The translations under genes and the position numbers were made by a program. Below, one piece after another: positions 1,244-50,919 of a stretch of DNA of 64,000 nucleotides (positions are counted from its first letter, which is position 1; each line of letters starts with the position of its first letter). Origin of the DNA: Chelativorans alearensis (GTDB lineage: Bacteria; Pseudomonadota; Alphaproteobacteria; Rhizobiales; Rhizobiaceae); contig NZ_WQNI01000012.1 of the NCBI RefSeq assembly GCF_010993735.1, positions 1-64,000 of the forward strand, read 5' to 3'. A model generated the notes under the pieces. That model was not told the origin of the DNA. It was given only the letters and a program-made list of their open reading frames with translations, and did no database searches.

Positions 1244-1268
1244 AACGGCTAAGATGGCCCTTTGTTCG
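1244..1268 (-). promoter_or_regulatory. EcfG-like promoter candidate (CGAAC-N16-CGTT)
   Basis: Reading leftwards, CGAAC lies at 1268-1264, then 16 bases, then CGTT at 1247-1244. The -10 half is the consensus CGTT and the -35 half differs at one base. It ends 34 bases before the ATG at 1210. Confidence 0.35.
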
Positions 1269-1492
1269 ATGGACCGCTGCAAATCTGGAAAATGGCTGAC
1301 ACTGGCGGTTCGCCTCGGGACACCCTGCACCGAAGTGCGTGGCAACCCTTGGTGGAGGTGTTTTCAGCGATGGCTGTTTTGTCTCATCTCATATGTCCCA
1401 TATTTGCCCTGCCTGTTTCGGGTCTCAGAGGGCGTTGCCTTGAGCCTTCCGGAGGCCTTTGCGATGCCTCCGCCGAACTCCCTTCCAGCGTC

Positions 1493-1518
1493 GGAACACT
1501 CCGGGCGCTTGCCGAGTT
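1493..1518 (+). promoter_or_regulatory. EcfG-like promoter candidate (GGAAC-N17-AGTT)
   Basis: GGAAC lies at 1493-1497 and AGTT at 1515-1518, with a 17-base spacer. It ends 31 bases before the PEBP start at 1550, which leaves room for the ribosome binding site GAGGAG at 1536-1541. The rest of 1211-1549 shows no gene. Confidence 0.45.
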
Positions 1519-1549
1519 TGGGCTCAGACAAAGATGAGGAGACGAATGG

Positions 1550-1993
1550 ATGGCGTTTGCTTTTTCGAACCTGGCCTTTGGCAACATAGAGAGAATTCCG
1601 GACAAGTACGTGCGCGATGGAAAAAACGTCTTGCCACCACCGGTCTGGAGGGATGCATCCCCGCAGACCAAGAACTTCATGCTGGTGGTGGAGGGTCCAG
1701 GCGCCCCTATGGCCACCTTCCACTATCGGAGCGTGTACCTGCCGGAGCGAACGACGGCAGGCGCCAAGACCGAAAGCCTCGGCCATTGTGTCAACGATTT
1801 GGGGAATCCGAACCATGGCGGCCCGCAGCCGCCGAAGGGCTACGGCGCTCACGACTACCACTTCCGTCTCGCCGCGCTCGACGTGGTGACGCTGCATTGT
1901 GACGGCAAGGCCAAGGTCGGGGAGATGCTGGAGCAGGCGAAGCCCCATATCATCGCCGCGGCGGAGCTCGGCGACACCTATGAGAGCGAATAG
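1550..1993 (+). CDS. YbhB/YbcL (PEBP) family protein
   Basis: The 147-residue product is a phosphatidylethanolamine-binding-protein fold member, as shown by LVVEGPGAP, the GNPNHGGPQPPKGYGAHDYHFRL segment (residues about 84-106, the family's GGP-PP-H-Y-F signature) and a C-terminal AELGDTY. Bacterial members bind small anionic or phospho ligands; the physiological ligand here is unknown. No signal peptide is seen, so it is likely cytosolic. GAGGAGACGA sits just before the ATG. The FAD/Rieske oxidoreductase starts 4 bases after its stop, so the two are probably one transcript, headed by a stress-type promoter at 1493. Confidence 0.8.
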   Translation: MAFAFSNLAFGNIERIPDKYVRDGKNVLPPPVWRDASPQTKNFMLVVEGPGAPMATFHYRSVYLPERTTAGAKTESLGHCVNDLGNPNHGGPQPPKGYGAHDYHFRLAALDVVTLHCDGKAKVGEMLEQAKPHIIAAAELGDTYESE

Positions 1994-1997
1994 TCCG

Positions 1998-3473
1998 ATG
2001 CGGGCACTTTCCGGAAAACCCGGAAGCTGCTGGGTCGCCACCGCCGAGCCCACCGGCTACCCGGCGCTCGAGGGATCCGTCCACGCCGAGACGGTCGTGG
2101 TCGGTGCCGGCATCTTCGGCCTCACTGTCGCCTTGCGGCTCGCAGAGGCGGGGCGCTCGGTCATCGTCTTGGAAGGGCTTCGGGTTGGACGGCAGGTGAC
2201 CGGGCGGTCGACGGCCAAGATCACCACGCAGCACCGGCTGATCTACCGCGAGCTGCTCGAAAAGCTCGGCACCGAGCGGGCGCGTGCCTATGCTGAGGCG
2301 AATAAGGCCGGAGTAGACTGCATCAAGGACTGGATTGCGGATTATGGCATCGCCTGCGACCTGGAGCCCAAGCCCGCCTACACCTATACGCAGGATCCCA
2401 GCCTCCGCTCCGCCATCGAGGCGGAGGCCGAGGCCGTTCGCAGCCTGGGCCTGCATGCGGAGGCGATCGATCGAGCGCCGCTTCCCTTCGACAATGCAGG
2501 CGCGCTCCTTTTCCGCGACCAGGCGCAGTTCAACCCGGCCATGTATTTGACCAAGCTCGCCCGCACGGTAGGGGATCGCGGCGGCCGCATCTTCGAGGAA
2601 AGCCGCGTGCGGTTCATCGGCGAGGCGAGCCGGTGGCGCGTCGTCACCGATGGCGGGACGGTGCACGCCGAAAACGTGGTAGTGGCCACCAACATGACCG
2701 TGAAGAGCCCGGTCGGCATGGCGAACCGCACGCAGCCGGGCAGCCACACAGTCATGGCCTTCCGCGTCAAAGATCCGGCGGTGATCGACGGCATGTTCAT
2801 CACCGTGGAAGAGGAGCAGTCGCGTTCCTTGCGGACCGGGCGGGACGCGGATGGCCCGCTGCTTCTTGCCCTCGGCCCGCGCTTCAACACCGGGCAGGAG
2901 GGCGACGTGGCAAGCCGCTTCGCGGAGCTCGAAGACTGGACGCGTGGGCACCTGCCGGTCGGCGAGACGGTCTGGCGCTGGTGCAACGAGGATTACGACA
3001 CCGCCGACCGGGTGCCGTATGCGGGCGAGCCGGCCCCGGAAAAGGCGCCCGGCTTCTATATCGCCACCGGCTTCAACGCCTGGGGCATCAGCAATGGGAC
3101 GGCTGTCGGCATGATGATCGCCGACGCGATCATGGGGCGGCCCACACCCTGGAAAGCGCTCTACGATCCCACGCGGCCGTACCCGCAGGACTTTCACACG
3201 AGCGGCGAAAGCCAGTCGGTGGTGGAGCGCGTGGGCGACATCGTCCCCGGCCACGGCGGCGTGCTTGTTACAGACGAGGGGCATGTTGCCGCCTGGCGGG
3301 ATGAGGCCGGCGAGTTGCACACCTTCTCCGCTCACTGCACCCACAAGGGGTGCACCGTCACCTGGAACAATGCCGATCGGACGTGGGACTGCCCATGCCA
3401 TGGCTCGATCTTCGCTCCCGATGGCGCAGTCATCCACGGTCCGGCGCGGCTTCCGCTATCGCCGAAGCAGTAA
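1998..3473 (+). CDS. FAD-dependent oxidoreductase with C-terminal Rieske [2Fe-2S] domain
   Basis: This 491-residue flavoprotein begins with a dinucleotide-binding fold, VVVGAGIFGL, at about residue 35. A DAO/glycine-oxidase-type FAD domain runs to about residue 395 (FYIATGFNAWGISNGTA closes it). A Rieske domain lies at the C-terminus with CTHKGC and CPCHGS supplying the two Cys and two His cluster ligands. This DAO-Rieske architecture is widespread in bacteria; substrate unknown. The ATG at 1998 follows the PEBP stop by 4 bases. An ATG at 1980 overlapping the PEBP gene is possible but adds only 6 residues. The first 15-20 residues are not a clear signal peptide, so it is probably cytosolic. 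Confidence 0.85.
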   Translation: MRALSGKPGSCWVATAEPTGYPALEGSVHAETVVVGAGIFGLTVALRLAEAGRSVIVLEGLRVGRQVTGRSTAKITTQHRLIYRELLEKLGTERARAYAEANKAGVDCIKDWIADYGIACDLEPKPAYTYTQDPSLRSAIEAEAEAVRSLGLHAEAIDRAPLPFDNAGALLFRDQAQFNPAMYLTKLARTVGDRGGRIFEESRVRFIGEASRWRVVTDGGTVHAENVVVATNMTVKSPVGMANRTQPGSHTVMAFRVKDPAVIDGMFITVEEEQSRSLRTGRDADGPLLLALGPRFNTGQEGDVASRFAELEDWTRGHLPVGETVWRWCNEDYDTADRVPYAGEPAPEKAPGFYIATGFNAWGISNGTAVGMMIADAIMGRPTPWKALYDPTRPYPQDFHTSGESQSVVERVGDIVPGHGGVLVTDEGHVAAWRDEAGELHTFSAHCTHKGCTVTWNNADRTWDCPCHGSIFAPDGAVIHGPARLPLSPKQ

Positions 3474-3809
3474 CGTACGGGCATCGTCTGTCGCTCCCAG
3501 CGAAAGGAACTGGCTTGTCCGCGACTGGAGCCTCGAAGGACAGGTACGGGCCGGTCGACGCTAAAGCCAGGAGAACAAGTGGCGATTGGAAGACACGGAA
3601 CTGCAACGGGAAACGGTAGGCAACGCACGGTCTACGCCCTGCGCAATAGTCATGGGCAGCCTGAGCACGAGCGATTGACGCATCTGCCGCGAGGCCTACA
3701 GCGCCATCCTCATCGGCTGGACGATTGAGATGATCCTGGGCGCGCGCTAGGGCGCCCGATCGGTCAAAAAACTTGCGCAAACCCTCACGCCTGTCAGCGA
3801 CCACTTCTG

Positions 3810-4031: not shown

Positions 4032-4149
4032 CGCACCCGTATTTCTCAAGAGTTGCTCCCTTTCTCACCTCACCTCGACGCGGGGAACAACGAAGCCGCC
4101 ATGAGGATTGTGACACGGCACCCCTCAACCACCGCCGGAGACAGCCACG

Positions 4150-5229
4150 CTGACGCTCGCCGAAAAACACAGACCCGAAGCAGGCGCACCGGGCGGCTCG
4201 GTTGCCGCTGGGGGCGCCAACCTTTCCTATGTCATCGACACCGAGCCTGGAATCCGCCGGCGCAAGGCAGGTCGCGGCTTAGCCTACGTCTCGCCCACTG
4301 GCCAGCGTATAGCCGATAGGGCCACACTGGCGCGAATCCGGTCACTCGCCATTCCCCCGGCCTGGACAGACGTATGGATATCGCCGGACCCGTCGGGCCA
4401 CATTCAAGCGACGGGCCGAGATCAGGCAGGGCGCAAGCAATACCGTTACCATCCCGCCTGGCTCGCCTGCCGTGACGAAGCCAAGTTCTCCAGCCTTGTC
4501 GCCTTCGCGGAAGCGCTGCCGAGGCTACGCGCGCGGGTTCGTGCCGACCTTGCCAGGCATGGCCTCCCCCGCGAACGCGTCGTCGCAGCCGTGGTCTGGC
4601 TGCTCGATCATACTATGATGCGCATCGGCAACGACATCTATGCGCGCCGAAACAAGAGCTTCGGGCTGACGACGCTGGAGACGCGCCATCTTAGGATCGA
4701 TGGTCCGCAACTGCGATTCAGCTTTATCGGGAAATCCGGACGCGAGTGGAAGGTGAAGCTGGTCGACCGCCGCATCGCCAGCATTGTGCGCACGATCCAG
4801 GAACTGCCCGGCCAGCACCTGTTCCAGTACCTCGACGCCGACCGGACGCGACAACCGATCCATTCACACGATGTGAATGAGTACATCCGCGAGACGATTG
4901 GATCGCAGTTCACGTCAAAGCACTTCCGCACCTGGGGCGGCACGACCGCCGCCGCTTTCCTCCTGGCGCAGGAGGCTCCACCTGACAGCAAGCGCAAGGC
5001 GACACGGGTTCTCAATTCCATCATCGATCACGTCGCACGGAAACTTCGCAACACGCGCGCCATCTGCCGGCAAGGCTACATTCATCCGGCCATTCTCGAA
5101 CGCTGGCGGCAATGGCGGCTCGCCGGTGACTTCAGGGCCCTTCGGCGCCGCCATCCCAAGCCGCTCAAAGGTCTGTCACGCGACGAGTCGCTCGTCCTGC
5201 ACTGGCTGCGGGCTGCCGAGGGGAACTAA
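4150..5229 (+). CDS. DNA topoisomerase IB, probable CTG start
   Basis: The product is a eukaryotic-like type IB topoisomerase of the bacterial and poxvirus class. It nicks one DNA strand through a 3'-phosphotyrosine and relaxes supercoils. The N-terminal domain is recognisable from LSYVIDTEPGIRRRKAG; IPPAWTDVWISPDP, RIGNDIYARRNKSFGLTTL, KHFRTWGGT and ICRQGYIHP (the last with the catalytic Tyr) follow in order. The frame is open from 4114 to 5229 but has no ATG, GTG or TTG before the conserved N-terminus; the first ATG, at 4591, would remove it. A GGAG at 4137 lies 9 bases before CTG at 4150, giving 359 residues, the usual family length. A mutated start is the alternative. Confidence 0.75.
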   Translation: MTLAEKHRPEAGAPGGSVAAGGANLSYVIDTEPGIRRRKAGRGLAYVSPTGQRIADRATLARIRSLAIPPAWTDVWISPDPSGHIQATGRDQAGRKQYRYHPAWLACRDEAKFSSLVAFAEALPRLRARVRADLARHGLPRERVVAAVVWLLDHTMMRIGNDIYARRNKSFGLTTLETRHLRIDGPQLRFSFIGKSGREWKVKLVDRRIASIVRTIQELPGQHLFQYLDADRTRQPIHSHDVNEYIRETIGSQFTSKHFRTWGGTTAAAFLLAQEAPPDSKRKATRVLNSIIDHVARKLRNTRAICRQGYIHPAILERWRQWRLAGDFRALRRRHPKPLKGLSRDESLVLHWLRAAEGN

Positions 5230-5597: not shown

Positions 5598-6104
5598 TTA
5601 TCCGATTGCTGCCACGTTGACCCTATTTTCGGCAAGTTGTGTGAGCTTTTCGTCGGCGGCCTTTTCATCAGCGAGGTTGCGTTTCAGGACCTCAGCCCAG
5701 TCGTCGCAATCGAGCTCGTTGGCCCAGGTAATCAACGTCCCGTATCGTGTGATTTCGTAGTGTTCCACAGCTTGGGCTGCAGCAATCAGCGCGGCGTCCA
5801 GCACCTGCTTGTCTTCGACTTCACCGGCAACATCGTTGGCCTCTTTGATGATACCGTCGATGGCGGGGCAATCCACGCCCCCAGGCTGAAGGTCCATCAG
5901 GCGGAACACCTCCTCCAGGTTCCGGATGTGGTTCTCCGTCTCCTCCAGGTGCTTTTCGAAGGCCTGCTTCAACTGCGCATCGTCGGCCTTCTCACGCATC
6001 TTCGGCAGCGCCTTGGTGATTTGCTTCTCAGCATAATAGATGTCGCGCAGCGAGTGAGCGAAGAGATCGTCCATCGACTTGATGTCCTTGCTGAAAAGTC
6101 CCAT
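5598..6104 (-). CDS. YciE/YciF family ferritin-like stress protein (DUF892)
   Basis: The 168-residue product starts MGLFSKDIKSMDDLF and carries the canonical DUF892 features: LRDIYYAEKQITKALPKM, FEKHLEETENHI, AVEHYEITRYG and a terminal ADEKLTQLAE. The conserved Glu/His residues lie on antiparallel helices as in a di-metal four-helix bundle. Family members are typically induced by osmotic or general stress. The start at 6104 has AGAGGAA upstream; a longer frame to 6194 lacks family sequence. A GGAAC-N16-AGTT element lies 64 bases upstream. Unlike the copy at 97, this one has a complete N-terminus. Confidence 0.88.
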   Translation of the reverse strand: MGLFSKDIKSMDDLFAHSLRDIYYAEKQITKALPKMREKADDAQLKQAFEKHLEETENHIRNLEEVFRLMDLQPGGVDCPAIDGIIKEANDVAGEVEDKQVLDAALIAAAQAVEHYEITRYGTLITWANELDCDDWAEVLKRNLADEKAADEKLTQLAENRVNVAAIG

Positions 6105-6167: not shown

Positions 6168-6192
6168 AACTCGGAGCGCTGCCGTCTGTTCC
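6168..6192 (-). promoter_or_regulatory. EcfG-like promoter candidate (GGAAC-N16-AGTT)
   Basis: Reading leftwards, GGAAC lies at 6192-6188 and AGTT at 6171-6168, 64 bases before the DUF892 start at 6104. Confidence 0.45.
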
Positions 6193-6455: not shown

Positions 6456-6480
6456 GGAACATTTCGCCGACCTGAAAGTT
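6456..6480 (+). promoter_or_regulatory. EcfG-like promoter candidate upstream of gcd (GGAAC-N16-AGTT)
   Basis: GGAAC lies at 6456-6460 and AGTT at 6477-6480. It is 112 bases before the gcd start, so a long leader would be needed. The remainder of the 6105-6592 interval holds no gene I can support. Confidence 0.35.
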
Positions 6481-6592: not shown

Positions 6593-9223
6593 GTGTATCG
6601 CATCATCATTTCCTGGATTGTTCTGCTATTGGGTGCGGTCTTGGCTGCAGGTGGCGTTTGGCTCGCCGCACTGGGCGGATCGTGGTTTTACCTCCTTTGG
6701 GGCGTGCTGCTCGTCGTTTCCGGCGCTCTTATCCTGGTGCGACGCGCCGTCGGCCTTACGGTTTACGGCATCTCGGTTCTGATCGCATTGGGATGGGCGT
6801 TGTGGGAAGTCGGCTTTGACTGGTGGGCGCTCACCGCCCGCGGCAGCCTGGTTATGGTGATCGGCATCCTTCTGCTGTTGCCGCCGCTGGTGCGGGCGAT
6901 GCATCCGCCGGGCGCCCCGCTGGCCCGCTATGATGCAAACAGCGTGGTGCTCGGCTTATCGATTCTCATCGCGGCGTCGGTGGGGATTTACTCGATATTC
7001 CAGTCGCCACACGAGGTCACGGAGATGTTCTCCGAAGAGAAGATGGCGTCCGAAAGTCAGCTTGACGCCGACATTCCCCCCGGTGAATGGCCAGCCTACG
7101 GTCGCACCTCTCATGGCAGGCGCTACTCGCCGCTGGCGCAGATCACGCCCGAGAACGTCTCGGACCTCGAGGTGGCCTGGCAGTATCAAACCGGCCAGAT
7201 ACGCGGAGAAGACGACCCTGACGAGACCACCTATGAGGTGACGCCGCTGAAGATCGGCGAGTCGCTCTTTGTCTGCACGCCGTTCAGTACGGTGATTGCT
7301 CTGGACCCGGTCACCGGCAAGGAGAAATGGCGCTTCGATCCGCAGCTCAGGCAACCTCCGACCCAGACCACGCAACACATGACCTGCCGCGGCGTTTCAT
7401 TTCACGCCGCCTCGCCCGACGACCTCCCCGCCACACCGCCTGGGGCGAGCTCGCCGCAGGCAGCCGCTCCACCCAATGAAGAGGGCTCGCCATCCGTGAG
7501 TCAGGCGCCCGCACAGGCGGCGCGCGAAGCCGACGGTACGGCTGCTACAACGGATGCCGCGCCCGAACCGGGGCAAGCAAATGCCGGAGCCGGCGAAGTG
7601 ACGACACAGGCTGCGCCCGTGCCGCAGAACATCGTCACCGGGCAAGCGCGACCGGATGCGCCAACGCCGGCCGTCGAGCGGGAAGAGCCGCCCGGCTCCG
7701 TAACCCTTACCGAGCAATGTATGAACAGGTTGTTCGTGCCGACTTCGGATGGACGACTGATCGCGATCAGCGCCGAGACGGGCGAAATCTGCCCAGGCTT
7801 CGGCGGTCGCGATGGGACCGTCAATCTGTGGGCCAACATGCCGAACGTAACGCCGGGCTCGTTCTACTCGACTTCACCACCGATCATCACGGAAGACGAC
7901 CTCGTGATCATCGGCGGCGCGATCAACGACAACGCCTCGGCCACCTCGCCATCTGGCGTCATTCGGGCCTATGATGCCTATACGGGCGCGCTCGTTTGGA
8001 ACTTCGACAGCAAGAGGCCCGAGGCGACGGAACCGATTCCCGCTGGAGAGACCTACAGCCAGAACGCGCCTAATTTCTGGAGCGTCGCAAGCTACGACCC
8101 CGAACGAGAGCTGGTCTTCATCCCCATGGGCAACGAATCGCCGGACCAGTTCGGCGCCAACCGGGGTGAGAACTCCGAGCGCTTCTCCTCCTCAATCCTG
8201 GCGCTTCACACCGCAACAGGCGAGGTCGCCTGGGTCTTCCAGACGGTGCACCATGACCTGTGGGACTACGACGTGCCGGCCCAGCCGAGCTTAGTTGAAC
8301 TCGCTGTCGACGGTGAAGAGGTGCCGGCGCTGGTAGCGCCGACCAAACAAGGCGATATCTTCGTGCTCAACAGAGAGACCGGCGAGCCCGTGCTTCCTGT
8401 TGAAGAACGTTCCGCTGGTGGGGATGCGGTCGAAGGAGACAGCGTAGCGCCTACGCAGCCGGCTTCCAGCCTGTCTTTCCGGCCAGAGCCTCTGACGGAA
8501 GCAATGATGTGGGGCGCGACGCCCATCGACCAGCTCTATTGCCGTATCCGCTTCCATCAGCTGCGATACCAGGGCATGTTCACCCCCCCTTCAACCCGGG
8601 AGACGATCGTCTACCCCGGCAATTTCGGCACTTTCAACTGGGGAGGCGTGGCGGTCGACCCCGAACGCGACATCATGTTCGGCATGCCCGTCTATCTCGC
8701 ATTCACCGTGGAACTCGTGCCGCGGCCGGATGATACTTCGCGCGTAGTGACGGAAGAGGGCGAACCGATCATCAACGAAAATTTCGGCGCCCCCTACGCA
8801 GCCAAGATGGGCCCGTTTTATTCGCCCCTCGACCTGCCTTGCCAACAACCGCCCTGGGGCTACGTTGCGGGGGTTGATCTTGGAAACGGAAAGACGGTTT
8901 ACAAGCACGTCAACGGTACGGTGCGCGACCTTGCACCATTTCCGATGCCCTTCGAGATGGGCGTCCCGGGTATTGGCGGGCCGATCGTCACAGCCGGTGG
9001 CGTCGCCTTTCTCAGCGGCGCCTTGGACTACTATGTACGAGGCTACGACCTGCGCACCGGTGAGGAAATCTGGCGTTCTCGACTGCCAGCGGGTGGCCAA
9101 GCTACACCCTCCACCTATGAAGGGGCGGACGGGCGCCAATATCTGGTTGTCGTAGCCGGCGGCCACGGCTCCACGGGAACGAAGCCGGGCGACTCCATAA
9201 TCGCCTATGCGCTGCCGCGGTAG
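6593..9223 (+). CDS. gcd: Membrane-bound PQQ-dependent glucose/quinate-type dehydrogenase
   Basis: This 876-residue quinoprotein oxidises an aldose or polyol in the periplasm and passes electrons to ubiquinone. Five membrane segments fill residues 1-140. A PQQ beta-propeller follows: WPAYGRTSHGRRYSPL, NVSDLEVAWQYQTG, TSPPIITEDDLVIIGG, VHHDLWDYDVPAQPSL near residue 553, PTKQGDIFVLNRETGEPV and the C-terminal RLPAGGQATPSTYE with GGHGSTGTKPGDSI. Residues about 273-368 form an Ala/Pro/Glu/Gln-rich, disorder-like insert between QHMTCRGVSFHA and TEQCMNRLFVPTSDGRL, far longer than the E. coli enzyme's segment. GTG at 6593 begins the first helix. A decayed partial copy lies at 3925. Glucose is the usual substrate, but quinate or shikimate is possible. 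Confidence 0.87.
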   Translation: MYRIIISWIVLLLGAVLAAGGVWLAALGGSWFYLLWGVLLVVSGALILVRRAVGLTVYGISVLIALGWALWEVGFDWWALTARGSLVMVIGILLLLPPLVRAMHPPGAPLARYDANSVVLGLSILIAASVGIYSIFQSPHEVTEMFSEEKMASESQLDADIPPGEWPAYGRTSHGRRYSPLAQITPENVSDLEVAWQYQTGQIRGEDDPDETTYEVTPLKIGESLFVCTPFSTVIALDPVTGKEKWRFDPQLRQPPTQTTQHMTCRGVSFHAASPDDLPATPPGASSPQAAAPPNEEGSPSVSQAPAQAAREADGTAATTDAAPEPGQANAGAGEVTTQAAPVPQNIVTGQARPDAPTPAVEREEPPGSVTLTEQCMNRLFVPTSDGRLIAISAETGEICPGFGGRDGTVNLWANMPNVTPGSFYSTSPPIITEDDLVIIGGAINDNASATSPSGVIRAYDAYTGALVWNFDSKRPEATEPIPAGETYSQNAPNFWSVASYDPERELVFIPMGNESPDQFGANRGENSERFSSSILALHTATGEVAWVFQTVHHDLWDYDVPAQPSLVELAVDGEEVPALVAPTKQGDIFVLNRETGEPVLPVEERSAGGDAVEGDSVAPTQPASSLSFRPEPLTEAMMWGATPIDQLYCRIRFHQLRYQGMFTPPSTRETIVYPGNFGTFNWGGVAVDPERDIMFGMPVYLAFTVELVPRPDDTSRVVTEEGEPIINENFGAPYAAKMGPFYSPLDLPCQQPPWGYVAGVDLGNGKTVYKHVNGTVRDLAPFPMPFEMGVPGIGGPIVTAGGVAFLSGALDYYVRGYDLRTGEEIWRSRLPAGGQATPSTYEGADGRQYLVVVAGGHGSTGTKPGDSIIAYALPR

Positions 9224-12820: not shown

Positions 12821-12827
12821 GGCGGTG

Positions 12828-13208
12828 ATGCGGCTTGTTCCGAAAGAGATCGAAAGCCTTTGGACGCTCTTCACCGCGCCGGCTGTCTGGGCAGCGCATT
12901 TTCTGCTCTGCTACGTCGGGGCGGCCGTCTATTGTGCCAAGCGCTCCTCGTGGGGTTTCGGTTTCGAGTGGGTGCGCGTCGGGATAGGCGTTGCGACACT
13001 GCTGGCCCTTACGATGATCCTCGTGTCGGCCTGGCTGGCATGGCGGCAATGGGGATTCGGCGCGCAAGACCCGCCGCACGACCGCCCGACCGGACATGAC
13101 AGGCGCAGTTTCCAGGGACTTGCGACCTTGCTGCTTTCAGGGCTGAGTTTTGTGGCGGTCATCTATACCGCCATGCCGGCACTGGTGATCGCGGAGTGCA
13201 ACCCATGA
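12828..13208 (+). CDS. Small three-helix membrane protein of the oxidase operon
   Basis: The 126-residue product has three hydrophobic segments (about residues 12-34, 46-68 and 92-115) and begins MRLVPKEIESLWTLFTAPAVW. It sits between the oxidase catalytic gene and the ctaG-like gene, overlapping the latter by ATGA. It could act as a small oxidase subunit (subunit IV-like) or assembly partner. No conserved metal site is seen, and the role is inferred only from context. Confidence 0.7.
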   Translation: MRLVPKEIESLWTLFTAPAVWAAHFLLCYVGAAVYCAKRSSWGFGFEWVRVGIGVATLLALTMILVSAWLAWRQWGFGAQDPPHDRPTGHDRRSFQGLATLLLSGLSFVAVIYTAMPALVIAECNP

Positions 13209-15714: not shown

Positions 15715-15740
15715 AACTCATTGTGTCGCGTTGGTGTTCC
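15715..15740 (-). promoter_or_regulatory. EcfG-like promoter candidate (GGAAC-N17-AGTT)
   Basis: GGAAC lies at 15740-15736 and AGTT at 15718-15715, ending 29 bases before the FMN reductase start. The rest of 15741-16079 shows no gene. A looser GGAAC-N19-TT at 15950-15975 points towards the aldehyde dehydrogenase. Confidence 0.42.
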
Positions 15741-43127: not shown

Positions 43128-44269
43128 GCTCCCGCCGCGCTGTGCCGGCAGCTCGCGGTGATCATTGAGCGATAGATCCCGATCATCGCCTCGGCCTGCG
43201 CCCTTGGGGTGAAATGTCGTACACGCTGGGAGGCCCGCATCGCCAACTCCCGCCGCAGCGCCTTATCGGCAGCCAGGTGGTCAAGCGCGGCAACGAGGCT
43301 CTTGGCATTATGCGGATCGAAGAAAAGTGCGGCGTCCGGCCACAGCTCGCGATAGGTGGGGATATCGGAAAGAACCAGTGCGCAGCCTGCGTGCGCAGCC
43401 TCGAGCGCCACCAACCCAAATGGCTCATAGAGTGAAGGCGAGACGACGACGGCGGCTCGCCGCATGTGCTCGAGAACCCCACTGTTGCTCAGTTCGCCGC
43501 AATAGTAGGCGTGCTTGGGTATGAAATGCTGGCCGTCGGGAGCGGAGAGAGGTCCTGCCATAAGAAGCGGCCATGACACCTCGCGCGCCGCAACGTCGAG
43601 GATTTCGCCGTTCTTGCTCTCGTCCCACCATCGCGCCGCGGCGAATACAAACTCCTCCTTGGGCCCCGGTTCAGGAGCGACCGCGAGCGCATTCGGGACC
43701 ACCGTAAGGCCGGGCAGTGCGCCGTAACACCTTTCGAGAGATTTGGCGTGGCTGCGGCTCGGCGCCACTATGGCGTCCGCGCCCTCGAAGCCGGACTTGT
43801 TGCGCGTCATGTGCCACTGCCACTCGTCGGGCAGCGGCCCTCCGCGCATCGTCCGCCACCAGGTCGGGATGCACGAATGGGAGGCGACGAGGATGGGAAC
43901 GTCGACGTCCAGGCCGCAGGACTGGGAGGGAAGATTGAGGTGAATGAGGTCAATCCGGCATTCGTCTGCCAGATGCCGTAGCAACTCGGGTAAGACGTCC
44001 AACTCGGTTTCGCGGTTGCACGTCCAATCAAGCGGCACATCGAGCCAGACAAGCTCGCCAAGCACCTGCGCTTCTGCGCGCTGCTCCGCCGTCGGGCCCG
44101 GTCCGAGACCGGCGAAGACGATGGAGACCCCGTGGGGCGCAAGTGCGCGCGCCAGACCCATCGCATAGCGCCATACGCCGCCCACTGCGTCCACTGTCAT
44201 CAGCAGGCGCGCCGATGCGCCCGGCTGCTGATGCCGATGTGCCGATGTTGTGGAAACAGCCTGCGTCAT
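43124..44269 (-). CDS. Family 4 glycosyltransferase
   Basis: The 381-residue GT4 enzyme shows MTVDAVGGVWRYAMGLARAL near the N-terminus (acceptor domain), VVPNALAV, KNGEILDVAAREVSWPLLMAG and the E-x7-E donor motif in PSLYEPFGLVALEAAHAGCALVLSD (about residues 292-316). Retaining GT-B enzymes of this family use UDP- or GDP-sugars. The start at 44269 (ATGA overlap) is chosen over a frame beginning 63 bases upstream. Part of the eight-gene operon. Confidence 0.86.
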   Translation of the reverse strand: MTQAVSTTSAHRHQQPGASARLLMTVDAVGGVWRYAMGLARALAPHGVSIVFAGLGPGPTAEQRAEAQVLGELVWLDVPLDWTCNRETELDVLPELLRHLADECRIDLIHLNLPSQSCGLDVDVPILVASHSCIPTWWRTMRGGPLPDEWQWHMTRNKSGFEGADAIVAPSRSHAKSLERCYGALPGLTVVPNALAVAPEPGPKEEFVFAAARWWDESKNGEILDVAAREVSWPLLMAGPLSAPDGQHFIPKHAYYCGELSNSGVLEHMRRAAVVVSPSLYEPFGLVALEAAHAGCALVLSDIPTYRELWPDAALFFDPHNAKSLVAALDHLAADKALRRELAMRASQRVRHFTPRAQAEAMIGIYRSMITASCRHSAAGA

Positions 44270-46299
44270 CGTGCGATCCTTCTTGCCGTGACGCGGTCGA
44301 CGGGCACTGACACCCTTTCCGCTCGCAACCAACCCAAGAGATCCTCAAGGCCATCGCTCCAGGGCACTTTAGGGCTCCAGCCAACGCGTCGTTGCAGCCA
44401 GCGCGTGTCGGCCACGAAATAAAGCTGGTCGCCGGCCCGCCAGTCCTCGCGCCTGACGTGCGGCTTGCTGCCCTTCAGGCGAGCGATCTTCTGCAGGACG
44501 ACCTGCAAACTAACCGCGTTGGCGGCCCCCCCGCCAAGGTTGAAAGCTTCCCCGCTGACTTCCGCGATACTGGCCCGTATCTGGCGATAGGCGGCCACGG
44601 CATCGCTGACGTGCAGCACATCGCGAACCTGCTTGCCGTCGCCGAAGACGGTGATGAGACTGTCCTCCAGCGCGCGGATGAGGAAGTGAGCGACCCAACC
44701 CTGATCCTCCGTGCCGAACTGCCGCGGGCCATAGACGCAACTCATGCGCAGGACCGCCGCCGGCAAGCCATAAGAGGTGGCGTAGTCGAGCACATATTGA
44801 TCTGCCACCCCCTTTGAGCAGCCGTAGGGTGTGCAGAACCGAAGGCTGCAATCCTCGCCGATGCCGTATTTGCGCACCTGCCGGTCGGCCGGCATATAAC
44901 GGTCTTCCAGCTCGATCATCTCCAGGTGGTCGAGTGACCCGTAAACCTTGTTCGTGCTGGCGAAAACGATCGGTATGCGCCGCCCCGACTGGCGGGCCGC
45001 CTCCAGCACGTTCAGCGTTCCGCGGCCGTTGACCTCGAAGTCGTCAAAGGGCTGCAGGAGACTGCTCGTAACGGCTGTCTGAGCTGCCAGGTGAAAGATC
45101 GAGCCGGCGTCGGCGACGGCGGGGTAGATCGACATATAATCGCGCACGTCGGCAAGGAACGGATGAACGCGATCGCCGTGCCTCTCCTTCAGCCAGCCGA
45201 GATTCTCATCGACACCGGGACGGCTCAGATTGTCGAGAACTATCACCTCCTCGCCGTCTTCGAGCAGGCTGTCCGCAAGATTGGCGCCGATAAAACCGCT
45301 GCCGCCCGTAATCAGAACGGGCTCTGTTCTGGCGCCGATCGAGGGAGCGGCCAGGCGTGCGATCTCCGCCACCTTCTCAACACCGCCATCGGTCAGAAGC
45401 CGCGCCAGCAACTTCGGCCGACCGGAATTATCGACAGCGCCCAGATGATAGTGGCGGACGTCGAACCATAGACCTTCCTGCACAGCCACGTCGTGCGGCA
45501 CGTCGCGCCAGCTGTACCAATACATGCGGTCGGCCGGCACATCGAGTGCGCTGATGAAGCGCCGCGCCTGCTCGACCTCGTCGTTGCGCCAGGTCGAATA
45601 GCCGGTTTCGGTGATCCATATCTCCGCCGCTTTATTGTAACGGTCGACGATGCGCCGCATCTCGCCGATATGCAGATCCCAGCCGCCCCAGCTTCCCTTC
45701 TCGCTGTCCCACGTACCTGGAAAACCATGGAACCCAACAGCACTGACGCGGTCCAGGACGCCTCTTTCGCCCATCAGGTCGAGCCAGTAGGGATCGAAAG
45801 GCGACGGTCCTCCGAGCACGGGATCCCAGCCGCGTTCCCGGGCCCAATGGGCGGCGTCGCCAATCATCTCACAGAAGAGCTGGAAATCGGTGTCTTCGCG
45901 CCAGTCCCAGTCGAGAAGGTTGTTCGGTTCGTTCCACAGCTCGATATGACGGAAGAGATGGCCGTAGCGCGTCAACACGTGGTCGACGAAATCAGCATAG
46001 TCGCGGAGGCGGCGCGGCGCGCCCGACGTCTTGCCCGTACGGGAAATGGAGGGTGGGGTGTAGTGGATACACGGCAACACATCCAACTTCGCAGCCAGCC
46101 TTGGCAAGAGCCAATCGAACCACTCCGGCCCCCCTGGGGCGAAATACTCCGCCCAGGACAGGTGTGTGCGCAGATAGGAGGCACCGGAAGCGATAATTTC
46201 GGGAAGCACCGTTTCCGTGCGCTCGTACTCGCCGGGGCGGAACCACTCGACGAACCCGAATTTGCGCTCGCTGTAGGGGGGACGTTTCGCCCCGGTCAT
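44266..46299 (-). CDS. Fusion of a GH39-like glycosidase domain and an SDR epimerase
   Basis: The 677-residue protein begins with a clan GH-A-like domain (residues 1-320). E124 in WNEPNN is the probable acid/base and E231 in WITETGYST the nucleophile, as in beta-xylosidases. From residue 327 an extended SDR follows: VLITGGSGFIGANLAD, HLAAQTAV, ASTNKVYGS and catalytic Y492-x3-K496 (YGCSK). It most resembles CDP-paratose or UDP-sugar epimerases. One protein thus joins a glycosidase-type fold with sugar-nucleotide epimerisation. The glycosidase half may instead be a binding or transglycosylating module. ATGA overlaps on both sides. Confidence 0.84.
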   Translation of the reverse strand: MTGAKRPPYSERKFGFVEWFRPGEYERTETVLPEIIASGASYLRTHLSWAEYFAPGGPEWFDWLLPRLAAKLDVLPCIHYTPPSISRTGKTSGAPRRLRDYADFVDHVLTRYGHLFRHIELWNEPNNLLDWDWREDTDFQLFCEMIGDAAHWARERGWDPVLGGPSPFDPYWLDLMGERGVLDRVSAVGFHGFPGTWDSEKGSWGGWDLHIGEMRRIVDRYNKAAEIWITETGYSTWRNDEVEQARRFISALDVPADRMYWYSWRDVPHDVAVQEGLWFDVRHYHLGAVDNSGRPKLLARLLTDGGVEKVAEIARLAAPSIGARTEPVLITGGSGFIGANLADSLLEDGEEVIVLDNLSRPGVDENLGWLKERHGDRVHPFLADVRDYMSIYPAVADAGSIFHLAAQTAVTSSLLQPFDDFEVNGRGTLNVLEAARQSGRRIPIVFASTNKVYGSLDHLEMIELEDRYMPADRQVRKYGIGEDCSLRFCTPYGCSKGVADQYVLDYATSYGLPAAVLRMSCVYGPRQFGTEDQGWVAHFLIRALEDSLITVFGDGKQVRDVLHVSDAVAAYRQIRASIAEVSGEAFNLGGGAANAVSLQVVLQKIARLKGSKPHVRREDWRAGDQLYFVADTRWLQRRVGWSPKVPWSDGLEDLLGWLRAERVSVPVDRVTARRIAR

Positions 46300-47405
46300 G
46301 ACACGAGCCCTCTTTCTTCGAGGTGACGTTTCATTTCCGCACCCCGGTCGACGGCCCCCGACCGCCGCACCCAGTCGGCCAGTTCCACCAGCGAATCCTC
46401 GAGCAGGTGCTCAGGCTCAAAGTCGAGCAAGGCACGTGCGCGGGAAATATCGGCGAAGCAATGGCGGATGTCGCCCACTCGTGCCTTGCCGAGAATCTCC
46501 GGCTTCATATCCGGCACTTCCATCGCCTCAGCCAGCAACCGCGCGACGCTGCTGATCGTATACGCGCGACCGCTGCCTATGTTGATAACGTTGCCGCGCG
46601 CTTCCGGTTTGCGCAGGGCCAAGGCGAAAGCGCGCGCGACATCTTGCACATGCACGAAATCACGCCGCTGCGCGCCATCCTCGAAGATGAGGGGAGGCTC
46701 GCCATTGATCAGGCGCGCGGCGAAGTTGGCAAGCACGCCTGTATATGGATTCGATAGCGCCTGGCCCGGCCCGAAGACGTTGAACAGCCGCAGCGCCACC
46801 GCATCGATGCCATAGGCCTCGGCGAAGATGAGAACGGCACGCTCCTGTGCGAATTTCGTCAGCGCATAGATGGATGCAAGCTCGACCGGCTTATCCTCGT
46901 TCGTGGGAACTGGCAGGAGCGGATCGCCGCTGCGCGTGGCCGGGTCCCACAGCCTGGCCTGTATGCGCGAACGGTCCCTTCGCACATCGTCATGGATACC
47001 GCCTGCCGCGTCCCGGTAGAGCCCCTCGCCGTAAACACTCATCGACGAGGCAACAACGATGCGCCGGACGGGCTGAGCGGCTATTTCCTGAAGCAGGACG
47101 GCCGTGCCGTAGTCGTTGGCGCCGACGTAACGCTCGATCTCGTACATGGATTGGCCAACACCGACTTCGGCCGCAAGATGCACCACCAGGCCCACCCCGT
47201 TCAGCGCATGCCGCACCGCATTAGCATCGCGGATGTCGCCACATATGAACTCTGCTCGGTCGGGCAGAACGGCGGGCCGGCCCCCGTGCACCTGATCGAC
47301 GAGGCTGTCGAGAACACGCACTTCGAAGCCGCCGTCCAGCAGTTCACGTGCTACACGGCGGCCGATAAACCCGCCGCCTCCCGTGATTAATACGATATCT
47401 TTCAC
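46296..47405 (-). CDS. NAD-dependent sugar-nucleotide epimerase/dehydratase (first operon gene)
   Basis: The 369-residue extended SDR has VLITGGGGFIGRRVARELLD, LVVHLAAEVGVGQSMYE, SSMSVYGEG, the catalytic YALTK, and RLFNVFGPGQALSNPYTG, a sequence style common in UDP-glucose/UDP-glucuronate 4-epimerases. An insertion of about 30 residues precedes the YALTK (DRSRIQARLWDP). It heads the operon. A GGAAC-N16-GGTT element ends 44 bases upstream of its ATG, so the entire pathway may be stress-induced. Confidence 0.85.
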   Translation of the reverse strand: MKDIVLITGGGGFIGRRVARELLDGGFEVRVLDSLVDQVHGGRPAVLPDRAEFICGDIRDANAVRHALNGVGLVVHLAAEVGVGQSMYEIERYVGANDYGTAVLLQEIAAQPVRRIVVASSMSVYGEGLYRDAAGGIHDDVRRDRSRIQARLWDPATRSGDPLLPVPTNEDKPVELASIYALTKFAQERAVLIFAEAYGIDAVALRLFNVFGPGQALSNPYTGVLANFAARLINGEPPLIFEDGAQRRDFVHVQDVARAFALALRKPEARGNVINIGSGRAYTISSVARLLAEAMEVPDMKPEILGKARVGDIRHCFADISRARALLDFEPEHLLEDSLVELADWVRRSGAVDRGAEMKRHLEERGLVS

Positions 47406-47449: not shown

Positions 47450-47474
47450 AACCGCAGCAGGAAGCTTTTGTTCC
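47450..47474 (-). promoter_or_regulatory. EcfG-like promoter candidate for the glycan operon (GGAAC-N16-GGTT)
   Basis: GGAAC lies at 47474-47470 and GGTT at 47453-47450, 44 bases before the first operon gene. It is back-to-back with the rightward element at 47495. Confidence 0.45.
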
Positions 47475-47494: not shown

Positions 47495-47519
47495 GGAACA
47501 GAAGGCCTTTTTGCGTGTT
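47495..47519 (+). promoter_or_regulatory. EcfG-like promoter candidate (GGAAC-N16-TGTT)
   Basis: GGAAC lies at 47495-47499 and TGTT at 47516-47519, 30 bases before the small protein gene at 47550. Confidence 0.45.
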
Positions 47520-47862: not shown

Positions 47863-49248
47863 CTAATCGCGCGCCGGCGCGGCTACGCGTCGGCGTGAGC
47901 CGGCCAACGCCGACACGCGCCCTCTCGTGCTTTTCCCGACTGGAGAAACCGGAGGTCGGCCAAGGCTGAAATAGGTCAACCCGTGGGCCGCGACCGCCCG
48001 TGGATCGAGCAAGTTCCGATAGTCGAAGACGACACGCTGGGACATCGTGCAGGCGAGGCGGCCAAGGTCGATGTTCTTGTACTCCTCCCATTCCGTGAGG
48101 ATGACGACCGCGTCCGCACCATGTGCCGCCTCATAGGGGGTATCCGTCCATTCGACATCGCGCAGCCACTGCCGCGCATTTGCCCTGGCCTTCGGGTCGT
48201 GTGCCCTCACCCTAAGCCCTGCCTTTTGCAGGATGGGGACCATCGTTAAGGCGGCGGCCTCGCGGACATCGTCGGTGTTCGCTTTGAAGGCCAGACCGAG
48301 CACCGCAACGACAGAGCCTTCCCGCAATTCGCCTTGCGCGATGACCCGCCTTGCCAATGCAACCTTTCGCTTTTCATTTCTTTCGATCAGGGTCTCGATA
48401 AGAAACTGCCGGGCGCCACGCCCATGACCGGTGGCTGCGAAGATGCATGTATCCTTCGGGAAGCACGACCCGCCGTAGCCCGGCCCCGGCCGTAGAAAGC
48501 TCGGGCCGATCCGCCGGTCGAGGCCAATGCCTTCGGCGACGGGGCCAACATCCGCACCTGTCTGCGCGCACAGGTCGGCCACCTCATTGATGAAGCCGAT
48601 CTTGAGAGCCAGGAAGGCGTTTGCCGCATATTTGATCAGCTCGGCATTTGGGGTGCTCGACAGCACTTTCGGTGCGCCGCGCTCCGTCAACGGTCGATAG
48701 ACTTCGGACAGCAATGAAGCGGACCGGCGGTCGTCGCAGCCGATGACGATCCTGTCCGGACACAGGAAATCCTCCATCGCCGATCCTTCGCGCAGGAACT
48801 CTGGATTCGCCGCAACGCTGAAATCGAGCGACTGGCGCTCCTCCGCCATGATCTCGCGAACACGCCGGCATGTTCCCGCAACGACGGTCGATTTGATAGC
48901 GACCACCGCGCCCGGCTTCAGCCAACGGCTGACGAGCCGCGCCGCGGCTTCCACTTGCGACAGGTCTATACGTCCGTCGGGCGTGGCGGGTGTACCGACG
49001 GCGAGAAACACGATATCTGCGCCGCCTACGCAATCAGCGCCTGAACGTGAAAAACGCAGTTTACCGGAGGCTACCGCTCGCCGCATGGCCTCCTCGAGAC
49101 GGGGTTCATAAATGGGTAGTTCGCCCGCTTCGAGTTGCCTGATACGTTCACCATCCACGTCATGACACGCGACCTCGTGGCCCATCTCGGCAAAACACGT
49201 TGCTGTCGTTAGGCCCACGTAGCCTGCGCCGATCATTGCGATTTGCAT
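47863..49248 (-). CDS. ugd: UDP-glucose 6-dehydrogenase
   Basis: The 461-residue enzyme oxidises UDP-glucose to UDP-glucuronate in two NAD-dependent steps. It shows IAMIGAGYVGLTTATCFAEM, FLAVGTP, IKSTVVAGT, VAANPEFLREGSAMEDFLCPDRIVIG, KYAANAFLALKIGFINEVAD and GYGGSCFPKD with catalytic C262. The C-terminal UDP-binding domain has LGLAFKANTDDVREA. About 20 extra basic residues (STRGRVSALAGSRRR) end the protein. It probably supplies the UXS-like enzyme of the adjacent operon. A GGAAC-N16-GGTT element ends 36 bases upstream. Confidence 0.92.
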   Translation of the reverse strand: MQIAMIGAGYVGLTTATCFAEMGHEVACHDVDGERIRQLEAGELPIYEPRLEEAMRRAVASGKLRFSRSGADCVGGADIVFLAVGTPATPDGRIDLSQVEAAARLVSRWLKPGAVVAIKSTVVAGTCRRVREIMAEERQSLDFSVAANPEFLREGSAMEDFLCPDRIVIGCDDRRSASLLSEVYRPLTERGAPKVLSSTPNAELIKYAANAFLALKIGFINEVADLCAQTGADVGPVAEGIGLDRRIGPSFLRPGPGYGGSCFPKDTCIFAATGHGRGARQFLIETLIERNEKRKVALARRVIAQGELREGSVVAVLGLAFKANTDDVREAAALTMVPILQKAGLRVRAHDPKARANARQWLRDVEWTDTPYEAAHGADAVVILTEWEEYKNIDLGRLACTMSQRVVFDYRNLLDPRAVAAHGLTYFSLGRPPVSPVGKSTRGRVSALAGSRRRVAAPARD

Positions 49249-49284
49249 AAGCCGCTCCCGCTCGGTTTAGGTTCTGCCGCTCCT

Positions 49285-49309
49285 AACCGCAGCCGGTAGC
49301 CGATGTTCC
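49285..49309 (-). promoter_or_regulatory. EcfG-like promoter candidate for ugd (GGAAC-N16-GGTT)
   Basis: GGAAC lies at 49309-49305 and GGTT at 49288-49285, 36 bases before the ugd ATG at 49248. Confidence 0.45.
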
Positions 49310-49382
49310 CGTAGACGCTGAAGATGAGAAACCATGATGCTACCGACCGCTATAGACGAACCAGCGGAAAGACGGACCCAGC

Positions 49383-50309
49383 CTACCTCTGCGACTTTTG
49401 GTCAAGCATCTCCTGAATAGCATCTTCGATCGCCGCAGGTTCGATCGCGAGTTGCGCAAATCCGGGCAAATCGGCGGCGGCGACGTTGTCGCGCCGCATA
49501 AGCTCGACCTGGTTTCGCGTAAGAGGCACGCTCGGCAGCTCTTCGGCCAGCCGCGCGATCATGCTCCAGAAAACGAAAGGTATCGGCACTGTGACGGTGT
49601 GCGCAGAAGACTGTCGTGCAACGGTTTTGACGAGATCGCGATAAAGATAGACGCGCGGCCCGCCCAGTTCATAACAGGGAGCGCTGTCCCCGCTATCCAG
49701 CACGCGCGCCACCGCCTCTGCCACGTCCTCCACATGAACCGGCTGCAGGCGCGTCTTTCCGTCGCCGAACAAAGGGTAGACCGGCAACAGCCGAACGAGG
49801 CGGGCGATGGTTGTCAGGAATGCGTCGTCCGGCCCAACCATGACGGCCGGGCGGACGATCGTCGCGCCGGGGAAAGCTTCCCTCACGGCGTTCTCGCCCC
49901 TGCCCCGGGCGCTGATATAGTCGGATCTGGAAAGCGGATCGGATCCGATCCCCGATATGTGGACCAGTTGCCTCATACCGACGTCACGCGCCACCCGCGC
50001 GACGCGCGCAGCGGCCCTGACGTGGATCGCATCGAAGGTTTGCTCGCCGTGCTCGACATAGAGGCTGACGGCATTGATGACATTGGCGGAACGCGCAAGC
50101 GCGGCGTTGAGCGAGACCTCATCCGTCACATCGGCACGGATAGCCTCGACCGCCGCCTTTCCAAAGATGCTGTGCGCCCGTTCAGGATGGCGAGATCCTG
50201 AACGGACTTCGAAGCCGCGTCTGAGCAGATGGCGAACAACGCGGCGGCCGAGAAATCCCGTCCCGCCGAGAACAAGCACGGAACGTGTTTCCCTCTTGGT
50301 GAGAGCCAT
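49383..50309 (-). CDS. Complex I NDUFA9-like NAD(P)-binding protein
   Basis: The 308-residue atypical SDR shows VLVLGGTGFLGRRVVRHLLRRGFEVRSGSR, HISGIGSDPLSRSDYISARGRGENAVRE, TIVRPAVMVGPDDAFL and ARLVRLLPVYPLFGDGKTRL with VHVEDVAEAVARVL. That pattern is shared with the NDUFA9 accessory subunit and bacterial relatives. It binds NAD(P)H, and the catalytic Lys is present in a variant arrangement (YISARGRGE), so dehydrogenase activity is doubtful. The CBS protein gene ends 4 bases before its start, so the two are one unit behind the promoter candidate at 50895. Confidence 0.82.
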   Translation of the reverse strand: MALTKRETRSVLVLGGTGFLGRRVVRHLLRRGFEVRSGSRHPERAHSIFGKAAVEAIRADVTDEVSLNAALARSANVINAVSLYVEHGEQTFDAIHVRAAARVARVARDVGMRQLVHISGIGSDPLSRSDYISARGRGENAVREAFPGATIVRPAVMVGPDDAFLTTIARLVRLLPVYPLFGDGKTRLQPVHVEDVAEAVARVLDSGDSAPCYELGGPRVYLYRDLVKTVARQSSAHTVTVPIPFVFWSMIARLAEELPSVPLTRNQVELMRRDNVAAADLPGFAQLAIEPAAIEDAIQEMLDQKSQR

Positions 50310-50312
50310 CCC

Positions 50313-50759
50313 TCAGGCGTGCGCATCGTCCGATTGGCAATGAACACCGCCCGGTCGCGCTACTCCCCGGAGCGCCTCGCCGGCAGGTGCCGGCCCTTCC
50401 TTGAACGCCAGGTCGCCGAGTGAGAGGATACCGACCAGCTGCTTTTCCCGATTCACGACCGGAATGCGTCTGATCTGCTGTTCGCCCATATTGTGCGCGA
50501 CGTGATCCGTATCCTCATCTTCGAAGCAGTATTTGATGTCACGGGTCATCACCTCGCGGACCTGTGTGTCGGAACCGCGCCCCTGCGCCACCGCCCGAAC
50601 CGCCAGGTCGCGATCGGTCAGCATGCCGACCAGATGGTCATCTCCACCGACCGGGACGACACCCGCATCGATCTCGGCCATGATCTTCGCCGCCTCGCGG
50701 ATGGATTGGTCGGGGCTCACAGTGCGGACGTTGGTCGTCATTACTTCGCTTACTTTCAT
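50313..50759 (-). CDS. Tandem CBS domain protein
   Basis: The 148-residue product has two CBS domains: residues 1-60 (MKVSEVMTTNVRTVSPDQSI, GVVPVGGDDHLVGMLTDRDL) and about 68-125 (VREVMTRDIKYCFEDEDTDH, RRIPVVNREKQLVGILSLGDLA). Stand-alone CBS pairs bind adenine nucleotides and act as energy or redox sensors. A short low-complexity tail follows. GGAGAAGG is just upstream of the ATG. It likely shares a transcript with the NDUFA9-like gene. Confidence 0.88.
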   Translation of the reverse strand: MKVSEVMTTNVRTVSPDQSIREAAKIMAEIDAGVVPVGGDDHLVGMLTDRDLAVRAVAQGRGSDTQVREVMTRDIKYCFEDEDTDHVAHNMGEQQIRRIPVVNREKQLVGILSLGDLAFKEGPAPAGEALRGVARPGGVHCQSDDAHA

Positions 50760-50894
50760 AGTACCTTCTCCTTTCTGCCAGTGGCCATGCCAGTGCCTTC
50801 CAATCTTGCTTGTGAAGGCAGCGGTCGTCTCTTCGTATTGCGGAAGCTGCCTCCTTTCCTCCGGTCCAGATAGCAGGAATCCCCTGCCCGCTTG

Positions 50895-50919
50895 AACCCG
50901 CCGAAAGGCCGATTGTTCC
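50895..50919 (-). promoter_or_regulatory. EcfG-like promoter candidate (GGAAC-N16-GGTT)
   Basis: GGAAC lies at 50919-50915 and GGTT at 50898-50895. It points to the CBS gene 135 bases away. The remainder of 50760-51128 has no supported gene. Confidence 0.35.

Follow-up and report, generated by a model that had tools for sequence, protein, structure and literature searches.

A non-canonical subgroup of the EcfG sigma factors was described by Jans et al. (2013; PMC3892343), who reported at least two EcfG copies in half of the alphaproteobacterial genomes completed by 2013 and whose Figure 5 shows the non-canonical EcfG genes as plasmid-borne. According to the same study, the paralogue pairs of Caulobacter and Sphingomonas are closer to each other than EcfG1 of Rhizobium etli is to EcfG2, a motif search on the targets of R. 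etli EcfG2 found none, and the EcfG1 motif stood before only one of the 19 units lowered in an R. etli ecfG2 mutant. A review of 2021 gave the promoter pattern of non-canonical EcfG as 'yet to be determined' (PMC8103513), and the excerpts available of PMC3892343, PMC6180224, PMC7083833 and PMC11387232 contain no motif for the subgroup. Here, a stretch of 64,000 nt from Chelativorans alearensis (positions 1 to 64,000 of contig NZ_WQNI01000012.1, assembly GCF_010993735.1; hereafter "the window") was analyzed, in which an earlier note had listed 14 intergenic elements of the form GGAAC-N16/17-NGTT and proposed a dispersed general stress (EcfG/RpoE2) regulon. Such elements were found packed into the first 51 kb, together with a gene at 17914-18480 whose product is assigned by its sequence to the non-canonical EcfG branch. 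We put at about 0.68 the probability that these 51 kb, probably along with the first 7 kb of a second contig of the same genome (C6), form a co-located stress regulon of this sigma factor with a promoter dialect of its own.

Promoter-like elements in the window

The pattern GGAAC-N16/17-NGTT had 15 exact matches in the window, compared to 2.09 expected, and none of 100 dinucleotide shuffles reached this number (largest, 10). Thirteen of the 14 elements of the earlier note are exact in position and strand, and all 13 are intergenic by in-house gene models; the 14th, at 1268-1244, reads CGAAC-N16-CGTT and has the single mismatch that had been claimed for it. The list was genuine but incomplete, as it lacked five GGAAC-N18/19-TT sites (at 4084, 15946, 17828, 25933, and 31476) and two further exact matches on the minus strand, at 29857-29881 inside a ligase gene and at 57157-57181 in partly coding DNA, the latter two being about the number due to chance. 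A count of all 65,536 pairs of a five-mer and a three-mer in intergenic DNA between 1 and 51.1 kb put GGAAC plus GTT at N17/18 first, with 13 occurrences (1.24 expected), ahead of the following pairs with 8 each. A spacing scan of GGAAC and GTT in the window gave 12 pairs at N17 and three at N18, and 0-5 at each spacing of N8-N16 and N19-N29. Within the intergenic DNA of 1-51.1 kb, 18 of 21 GGAACA strings have GTT or ATT at the correct distance, and these are the 13 GTT sites and the five GGAAC-N18/19-TT sites. The spacer sequences vary from site to site.

Judged by these features the elements are EcfG-type promoter-like sites, as had been proposed, with a frequency far above chance and with recurrence at the same places in relatives (see below). 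The proposed match to the published EcfG/RpoE2 consensus does not hold for the first base of the -10 box: A follows GGAAC in 13/13 exact intergenic sites, but CGTT occurs in only 1/13 of these putative targets. The CGTT form GGAAC-N16/17-CGTT was not enriched in the window (2 vs 0.99 expected; 23/100 shuffles reached 2) and was at background level across the genome (92 matches vs 99 for a reversed control). The enrichment in the window therefore rests on A/G/T-GTT, and the canonical CGTT pattern was rejected as its explanation.

Across the genome, GGAACA-N15/16-NGTT had 63 matches (reversed control, 36), 13 of which lie within the first 51 kb of the window; with one gene caller, these 13 were all intergenic, compared to 25 of the 50 matches in the rest of the genome. 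GGAACA-N15/16-DGTT (D being A, G, or T) had 43 matches (control, 22), and 12 of these are packed into the first 51 kb, which make up 0.9% of the genome (binomial 3e-15, for a region picked after the sites had been seen). Another two fall within the initial 7 kb of C6, and 29 lie outside both regions, some of which may be real sites. The regulon can thus hardly be called dispersed, as had been suggested, even with 29 matches elsewhere. The sites at the C6 end precede a gene of the DUF892 type, a Ku-type gene, a sigma factor gene, and one more open reading frame (ORF).

Phylogenetic position of the sigma factor

The ORF at 17914-18480 (plus strand, 188 amino acids) matched the Pfam families Sigma70_r2, Sigma70_r4_2, and PhyR_sigma2, and scored over the cut-off for PF22029. 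It has the features of the extracytoplasmic function (ECF) group ECF15/EcfG, namely ECF regions 2 and 4 with a region 2 of the EcfG/PhyR type, and its best solved relative by sequence (5uxx, E 1.6e-34) is titled only 'RNA polymerase sigma factor'. A second copy at C6:4831 is 81% identical, and a further sigma-like PF22029 match at G000:C36:100049-100489 is 38% identical to the window sigma factor. The canonical ecfG-nepR-phyR locus of the same genome was located at 425-426 kb of contig C12, with the sole NepR over cut-off in the genome at C12:425838. In this genome-wide search no NepR match over cut-off was found near the window sigma factor or its C6 copy; the window gene has neither nepR nor phyR beside it, the only PF22029 match nearby being the sigma factor itself.

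Two trees were calculated. In the second, the window sigma factor, R. etli EcfG2 (plasmid p42f, L142), and Sinorhizobium meliloti RpoE5 (pSymB, L143) fell into one clade of 38 rows with an ultrafast bootstrap value (UFBoot) of 82 (96 when one more row is included), and this clade holds 0/11 canonical Rhizobiales rows. The R. etli CFN42 protein EcfG2 (PF00052) probably corresponds to RHE_RS26680, judging by homology and gene order. The first tree, from which rows <140 amino acids and four duplicates had been left out and in which one row was misframed (L135, a wrong-strand translation), gave support of 99/97 for a fork of 43 rows that did not contain the two named sigma factors. Eleven rows were dropped from the second tree as misframed or long-branched (L135_g, L136_g, L137_g, L139_g, L068, L063, L066, L098, L119, L107, and L100). 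L112, with a broken sigma frame (89 amino acids), is in neither tree, and its locus was kept in the dialect and sigma-promoter counts below.

The non-canonical and canonical branches differ at 25 positions by an in-house cut-off. Residue 78 is Thr in 38/38 non-canonical compared to Ser in 20/21 canonical proteins, and residue 79 is mostly Arg or Lys in the former but mostly Gln or Glu in the latter. Region 2.4 of sigma factors is expected to touch the -10 box, and positions 78-79, two of the 25 branch-specific positions, probably belong to the region that does so.

Promoter dialect of non-canonical and canonical EcfG loci

The loci of the two branches differ in promoter dialect. Around 33 non-canonical sigma genes, 224 sites were counted (background, 31), and after subtraction of background the first -10 base was C in 26% (interval 19-32), amounting to no preference, and GGAAC was followed by A in 60% (51-70). 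The 74 sites at 11 canonical Rhizobiales loci (background, 12) had corresponding shares of 92% (84-102) for C and 19% (8-38) for A; 48 other EcfG loci had 76% C and 14% A. The background was estimated from ten other spacing pairs, identical sequences were kept, L142 was counted over its first 25 kb only, and at the canonical loci the promoters of ecfG-nepR-phyR were counted as well. The intervals, obtained by bootstrap over loci, are too narrow because the Mesorhizobium and Stappia loci are closely related. These two genera also show the dialect strongly (Stappia, 12/44 C and 27/44 A; Mesorhizobium, 13/67 C and 48/67 A). At 50-100 kb of the R. etli plasmid p42f, 13/16 GGAAC-N17/18-GTT sites are not CGTT (control, 2.7), and the base after GGAAC is A in eight and C in eight of the 16.

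Conservation of the sites in related genomes

The block at 31.7-50.7 kb is kept in two sister species, G002 and G006 (Chelativorans salis), most of its genes showing 80-99% protein identity, and in both the sigma gene lies inside the block, beside orthologues of the ORFs 34725 and 35397. For each of the seven sites of this block, both species have a counterpart at the corresponding position. In three-way alignments of the sites GGAAC was invariant in 35/35 columns, GTT in 21/21, and the A after GGAAC at 6/7 sites, compared to 83/105 invariant columns in the spacer, 223/420 in the upstream flank, and 286/420 in the downstream flank; the invariance of the boxes is partly built in, because the counterparts were found by the pattern GGAAC...[GA]TT (one by its string), and only their presence at matching places is independent evidence. 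In N. aestuarii a related cluster is unlinked to the sigma gene, and sites precede its relatives of 35397, 46296, and 47863.

The first gene of a run of glycan genes (46296-47405) had 20 matches in 19 of 61 genomes. Among the best match of each genome (60-100% identity, the window included) 18/19 have GGAAC-N17/18-GTT upstream, at 31-64 nt from the aligned start, with one CGTT and 17 other boxes; no such site was found before the match in the order-level locus L197 or before a second copy with 48% identity (L198). A close relative of the window sigma factor was present in 18/19 genomes with the glycan-run gene but in only 3/42 without it (Fisher 2e-11, relatedness among the genomes being ignored), where "close" means a best E <= 1e-50, a cut-off set after the list had been seen.

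Promoter of the sigma gene

The window sigma gene itself is preceded, at a distance of 61 nt, by a GGAAC-N17-ATT site with the -10 box CATT (17828-17852, plus strand). GGAAC-N17/18-ATT with C before ATT precedes the sigma gene in 25/32 named loci, and a CATT-type site was also found in 6/6 further relatives (genus genomes with a correct-strand, non-duplicate locus), at the C6 copy, and in S. meliloti; no GGAAC-N17/18-ATT precedes the sigma gene of R. etli. None of the 25 named sites has A after GGAAC, whereas that of the window does. Such sites, recurring for example at L043 and L049, are unlike both the target dialect and canonical CGTT. The rpoE5 promoter of S. meliloti is listed as mapped in PMC6180224 (Table 1), with increased activity when RpoE2 is overexpressed, and R. 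etli EcfG2 is reported to be autoregulated and partly EcfG1-dependent (PMC3892343). The recurrence of the CATT-type sites and the response to RpoE2 together suggest that the sigma gene may be driven by canonical EcfG or by the sigma factor itself. Since the sigma-gene sites of relatives are nearer to canonical EcfG sites (C kept, no A), a cascade from canonical EcfG is likely.

Genes adjacent to the sites

Most sites lie close to a gene, as had been claimed; the number ending shortly before a gene start, given as nine at 25-65 bases, is now 10/14 at 29-65 nt when preferred starts are used. Starts of genes lacking Pfam support come from a simple in-house caller, and part of the window ORFs was scanned against Pfam. 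At the left end, the one-mismatch element (1244-1268, minus strand) is 33 nt before a gene with no Pfam match if this starts at 1210 (homologues in five loci), and an AGTT site (1493-1518, plus) is 31 nt before a PEBP gene (1550-1993). A site GGAACA...GATT (4084-4109, plus) is 46 nt before a DNA topoisomerase IB gene (4156-5229). Two AGTT sites follow, one (6168-6192, minus) 63 nt before a DUF892 (YciE-type) gene (5598-6104) and one (6456-6480, plus) 112 nt before a PQQ dehydrogenase gene (6593-9223). Directly behind the latter is a cytochrome c oxidase set with a CtaG-type gene (9324-14967), which has no listed site of its own. An AGTT site (15715-15740, minus) is 29 nt before an FMN reductase gene (15125-15685), and a second GGAACA...GATT site (15946-15971, plus) lies 9 nt ahead of an aldehyde dehydrogenase gene called from 15981, whose true start may be later.

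Beyond the sigma gene, a TGTT site (23012-23037, minus) is 200 nt before an SDR gene (21843-22811), and the sole CGTT site of the 13 (25068-25092, plus) is 34 nt before a small gene (25127-25450) that has no Pfam match and looks ElaB-like by eye. GGAACA...CATT (25933-25957, plus) is 38 nt before a small ORF (25996-26181; a membrane protein by eye), and GGAACA...TATT (31476-31500, minus) is 75 nt before a LigD phosphoesterase gene (30705-31400), which is followed by the ligase gene (29779-30720). LigD is thus split in the window, its polymerase part being encoded at 23413-24324; the C6 end (L022) carries a fused LigD gene (1143-3635) and, by eye, two Ku-type genes.

Within the block shared with the two sister species, a GGTT site (34422-34446, minus) is 190 nt before a fusion gene (31685-34231) for an 848-amino-acid protein with epimerase, VKOR, and SPW domains that is 90-93% conserved in both species. 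An AGTT site (34635-34659, plus) is 65 nt before ORF 34725-35150, which had been labeled ElaB-like and has no Pfam match here, and a TGTT site (35369-35393, plus) is 36 nt before a zinc-type dehydrogenase gene if this starts at 35430; all three sites recur in both species. The glycan and nucleotide-sugar gene run, which extends from 46296-47405 on to 38006, has a GGTT site (47450-47474, minus) 44 nt before its first gene, and divergent from it a TGTT site (47495-47519, plus) is 30 nt before a small gene called at 47550. A 677-amino-acid protein is encoded at 44266-46299; its second half is an epimerase, and no Pfam match was obtained for the first. Two further GGTT sites on the minus strand are 36 nt before a gene of the UDP-glucose dehydrogenase (ugd) type (site 49285-49309; gene 47863-49248) and 153 nt before a CBS-domain gene (site 50895-50919; gene 50313-50741).

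Genomic setting

Of contig C4 (177 kb) in a 5.7-Mb draft assembly, the window covers the first 64 kb, and its G + C content spans 0.57 to 0.66 along its length; no tRNA and no Rfam match was found in it. Contigs C6 and C4 probably adjoin, with C6 beginning near the left end of the window, because an apparently single DUF892 gene is cut at both contig starts (window 1-160 and C6 1-140). By eye, the broken ends share GATCGAGAACTA, and the DNA beside it resembles the inverted ends of an insertion element, so that an insertion element is indicated at the junction. A fragment at 27328-27480 resembles, also by eye, the start of an IS5-type transposase. A plasmid origin of the locus found no support, the single repC-family match of the draft genome being on contig C1 and not on C4; sigma genes of some relatives are on chromosome-sized contigs (G011:C1, 5.3 Mb).

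Proposed regulon and alternative explanations

We propose that stress would act through PhyR and NepR on the canonical EcfG encoded on contig C12, which in turn would switch on the non-canonical sigma gene via the CATT-type GGAAC-N17-ATT site before it. The non-canonical sigma factor would then read the window sites, directing RNA polymerase to GGAACA-N15/16-[A/G/T]GTT promoters before neighboring genes. Judged by Pfam, its targets would include DUF892 proteins, LigD parts for end-joining repair, topoisomerase IB, PQQ dehydrogenase, aldehyde and zinc dehydrogenases, FMN reductase, and glycan and UDP-glucose genes, and such a regulon would presumably be stress-inducible and serve stress survival. 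That most of 1-51 kb belongs to one regulon, as proposed before, is better supported with 18 sites, although several units lack one.

Several observations weigh against this interpretation. Units without a site include the UDG gene at 18642, the LigD polymerase gene at 23413, and those at 19434, 20676, 27533, and 28194, and some sites are far from the called start (two at 190-200 nt, one at 153, one at 112). The support of the non-canonical clade is moderate, and in the three-way alignments the first -10 base is kept in 4/7 sites only, in addition to the built-in part of the box invariance. The dialect is weak in some genera (Rhizobium, 11/34 C; RMAD-H1, 6/15 C; C. salis, 2/5 C); the five sites of C. 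salis and the two sites counted at three Nitratireductor-type loci are not above background, and the sigma loci of Nitratireductor luteus (L047) and bin61 (L048) have no GGAAC-N17/18-GTT within 10 kb. The gene katG of R. etli, reported to be EcfG2-dependent, has no GGAAC on its strand in the 145 bp before it and was dropped as a test of the motif. G018, G023, and G053 have the sigma factor but lack the glycan-run gene, and conversely G033 has the glycan operon and its site but no close non-canonical sigma factor; another sigma factor, perhaps canonical EcfG, may therefore read the site there. The reversed-pattern control is also imperfect, as 16/16 genus genomes exceed it, and the genome-wide excess of GGAACA-DGTT was dropped as evidence because G009, which lacks the sigma factor, shows it too.

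The window could instead hold an ordinary canonical EcfG regulon, in which the EcfG of C12 tolerates any base before GTT and the non-canonical sigma factor is an amplifier of the same specificity. In the Sphingopyxis EcfG regulon TGTT, CATT, and GGTT are indeed the commonest boxes after CGTT and were used as in vitro templates, but output was lowered when CGTT was changed to CATT or TGTT (PMC7083833). Both EcfG1 and EcfG2 of R. etli read the phyR promoter in E. coli (PMC3892343), and the G033 site fits this explanation as well, yet sites near canonical Rhizobiales ecfG genes are 92% CGTT, compared to 1/13 in the window, and have A after GGAAC in 19%, compared to 60% near non-canonical loci. 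The co-occurrence of the glycan-run gene with the non-canonical sigma factor (18/19 vs 3/42) and the single EcfG1 motif among the 19 units of the ecfG2 mutant also weigh against a shared specificity, and we consider this explanation rather unlikely. Much less probable still is recognition of the sites by a different ECF group that uses a GGAA-type -35 box, such as ECF26 (GGAATA/GT). RpoE6 (ECF26) of S. meliloti shares 27/40 of its targets with RpoE2 (PMC6180224), but the -35 box here is GGAAC, and among the ORFs scanned in the cluster the one sigma gene that was identified is ECF15-like. Finally, a compositional or inherited accident, by which duplication or a mobile repeat would have spread GGAAC...GTT strings devoid of promoter function, is hardly credible: copying could by itself produce a local enrichment, and signs of an insertion element are present, but the spacers differ between the window sites, a site precedes the same gene in 18/19 copies, and dinucleotide shuffles reach at most 10 matches.

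The co-located regulon of a non-canonical EcfG thus remains our preferred reading for the window. Its extension to the Hyphomicrobiales is an evenly balanced prospect: the non-canonical EcfG of this order would have a code of their own, GGAAC(A)-N15/16-[A/G/T]GTT, set apart from CGTT by changes in region 2.4 and often kept together with the target genes, while their own genes would be under a CATT promoter readable by canonical EcfG, resulting in a two-tier cascade. The comparative evidence offers an explicit candidate pattern for non-canonical EcfG, residues possibly involved in its recognition, and a compact locus for tests, and the promoter signature of this branch is thereby open to direct testing. 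A regulon packed around its own regulator also bears on how regulons spread.

Comparison with described EcfG systems

The two EcfG paralogues of Sphingopyxis granuli, EcfG1 and EcfG2, resemble the situation in C. alearensis in that EcfG paralogues share one genome, but the Sphingopyxis targets inspected in the available part of that study share one CGTT consensus (PMC7083833). Canonical EcfG/RpoE2 with NepR and PhyR has the GGAAC -35 box and the spacing in common with the window sites; unlike it, the window sigma factor has no nepR or phyR beside it, and the boxes of its neighbors are mostly A/G/T-GTT after GGAACA. R. etli EcfG2 belongs to the same clade as the window sigma factor, lacks, as its authors report, a response-regulator or anti-sigma gene in its vicinity (PMC3892343), is flanked on both sides by annotated ferritin-like genes, and is surrounded by sites that are mostly not CGTT (13/16). 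It differs in the absence of GGAAC-N17/18-ATT before its gene and in the equal shares of A and C after GGAAC. S. meliloti RpoE5 (SMb21484, pSymB) differs in that its overexpression gave a single putative target (PMC6180224) and in a NepR-like ORF reported beside it, whereas none over cut-off is beside the window sigma factor. RpoE5 also falls into the clade of the window sigma factor and is activated by RpoE2, and its published promoter, GGAACCAAAGGGCCGGAAAGGCATT, is of the same GGAAC-N17-ATT kind as that found before the window sigma gene (PMC6180224).

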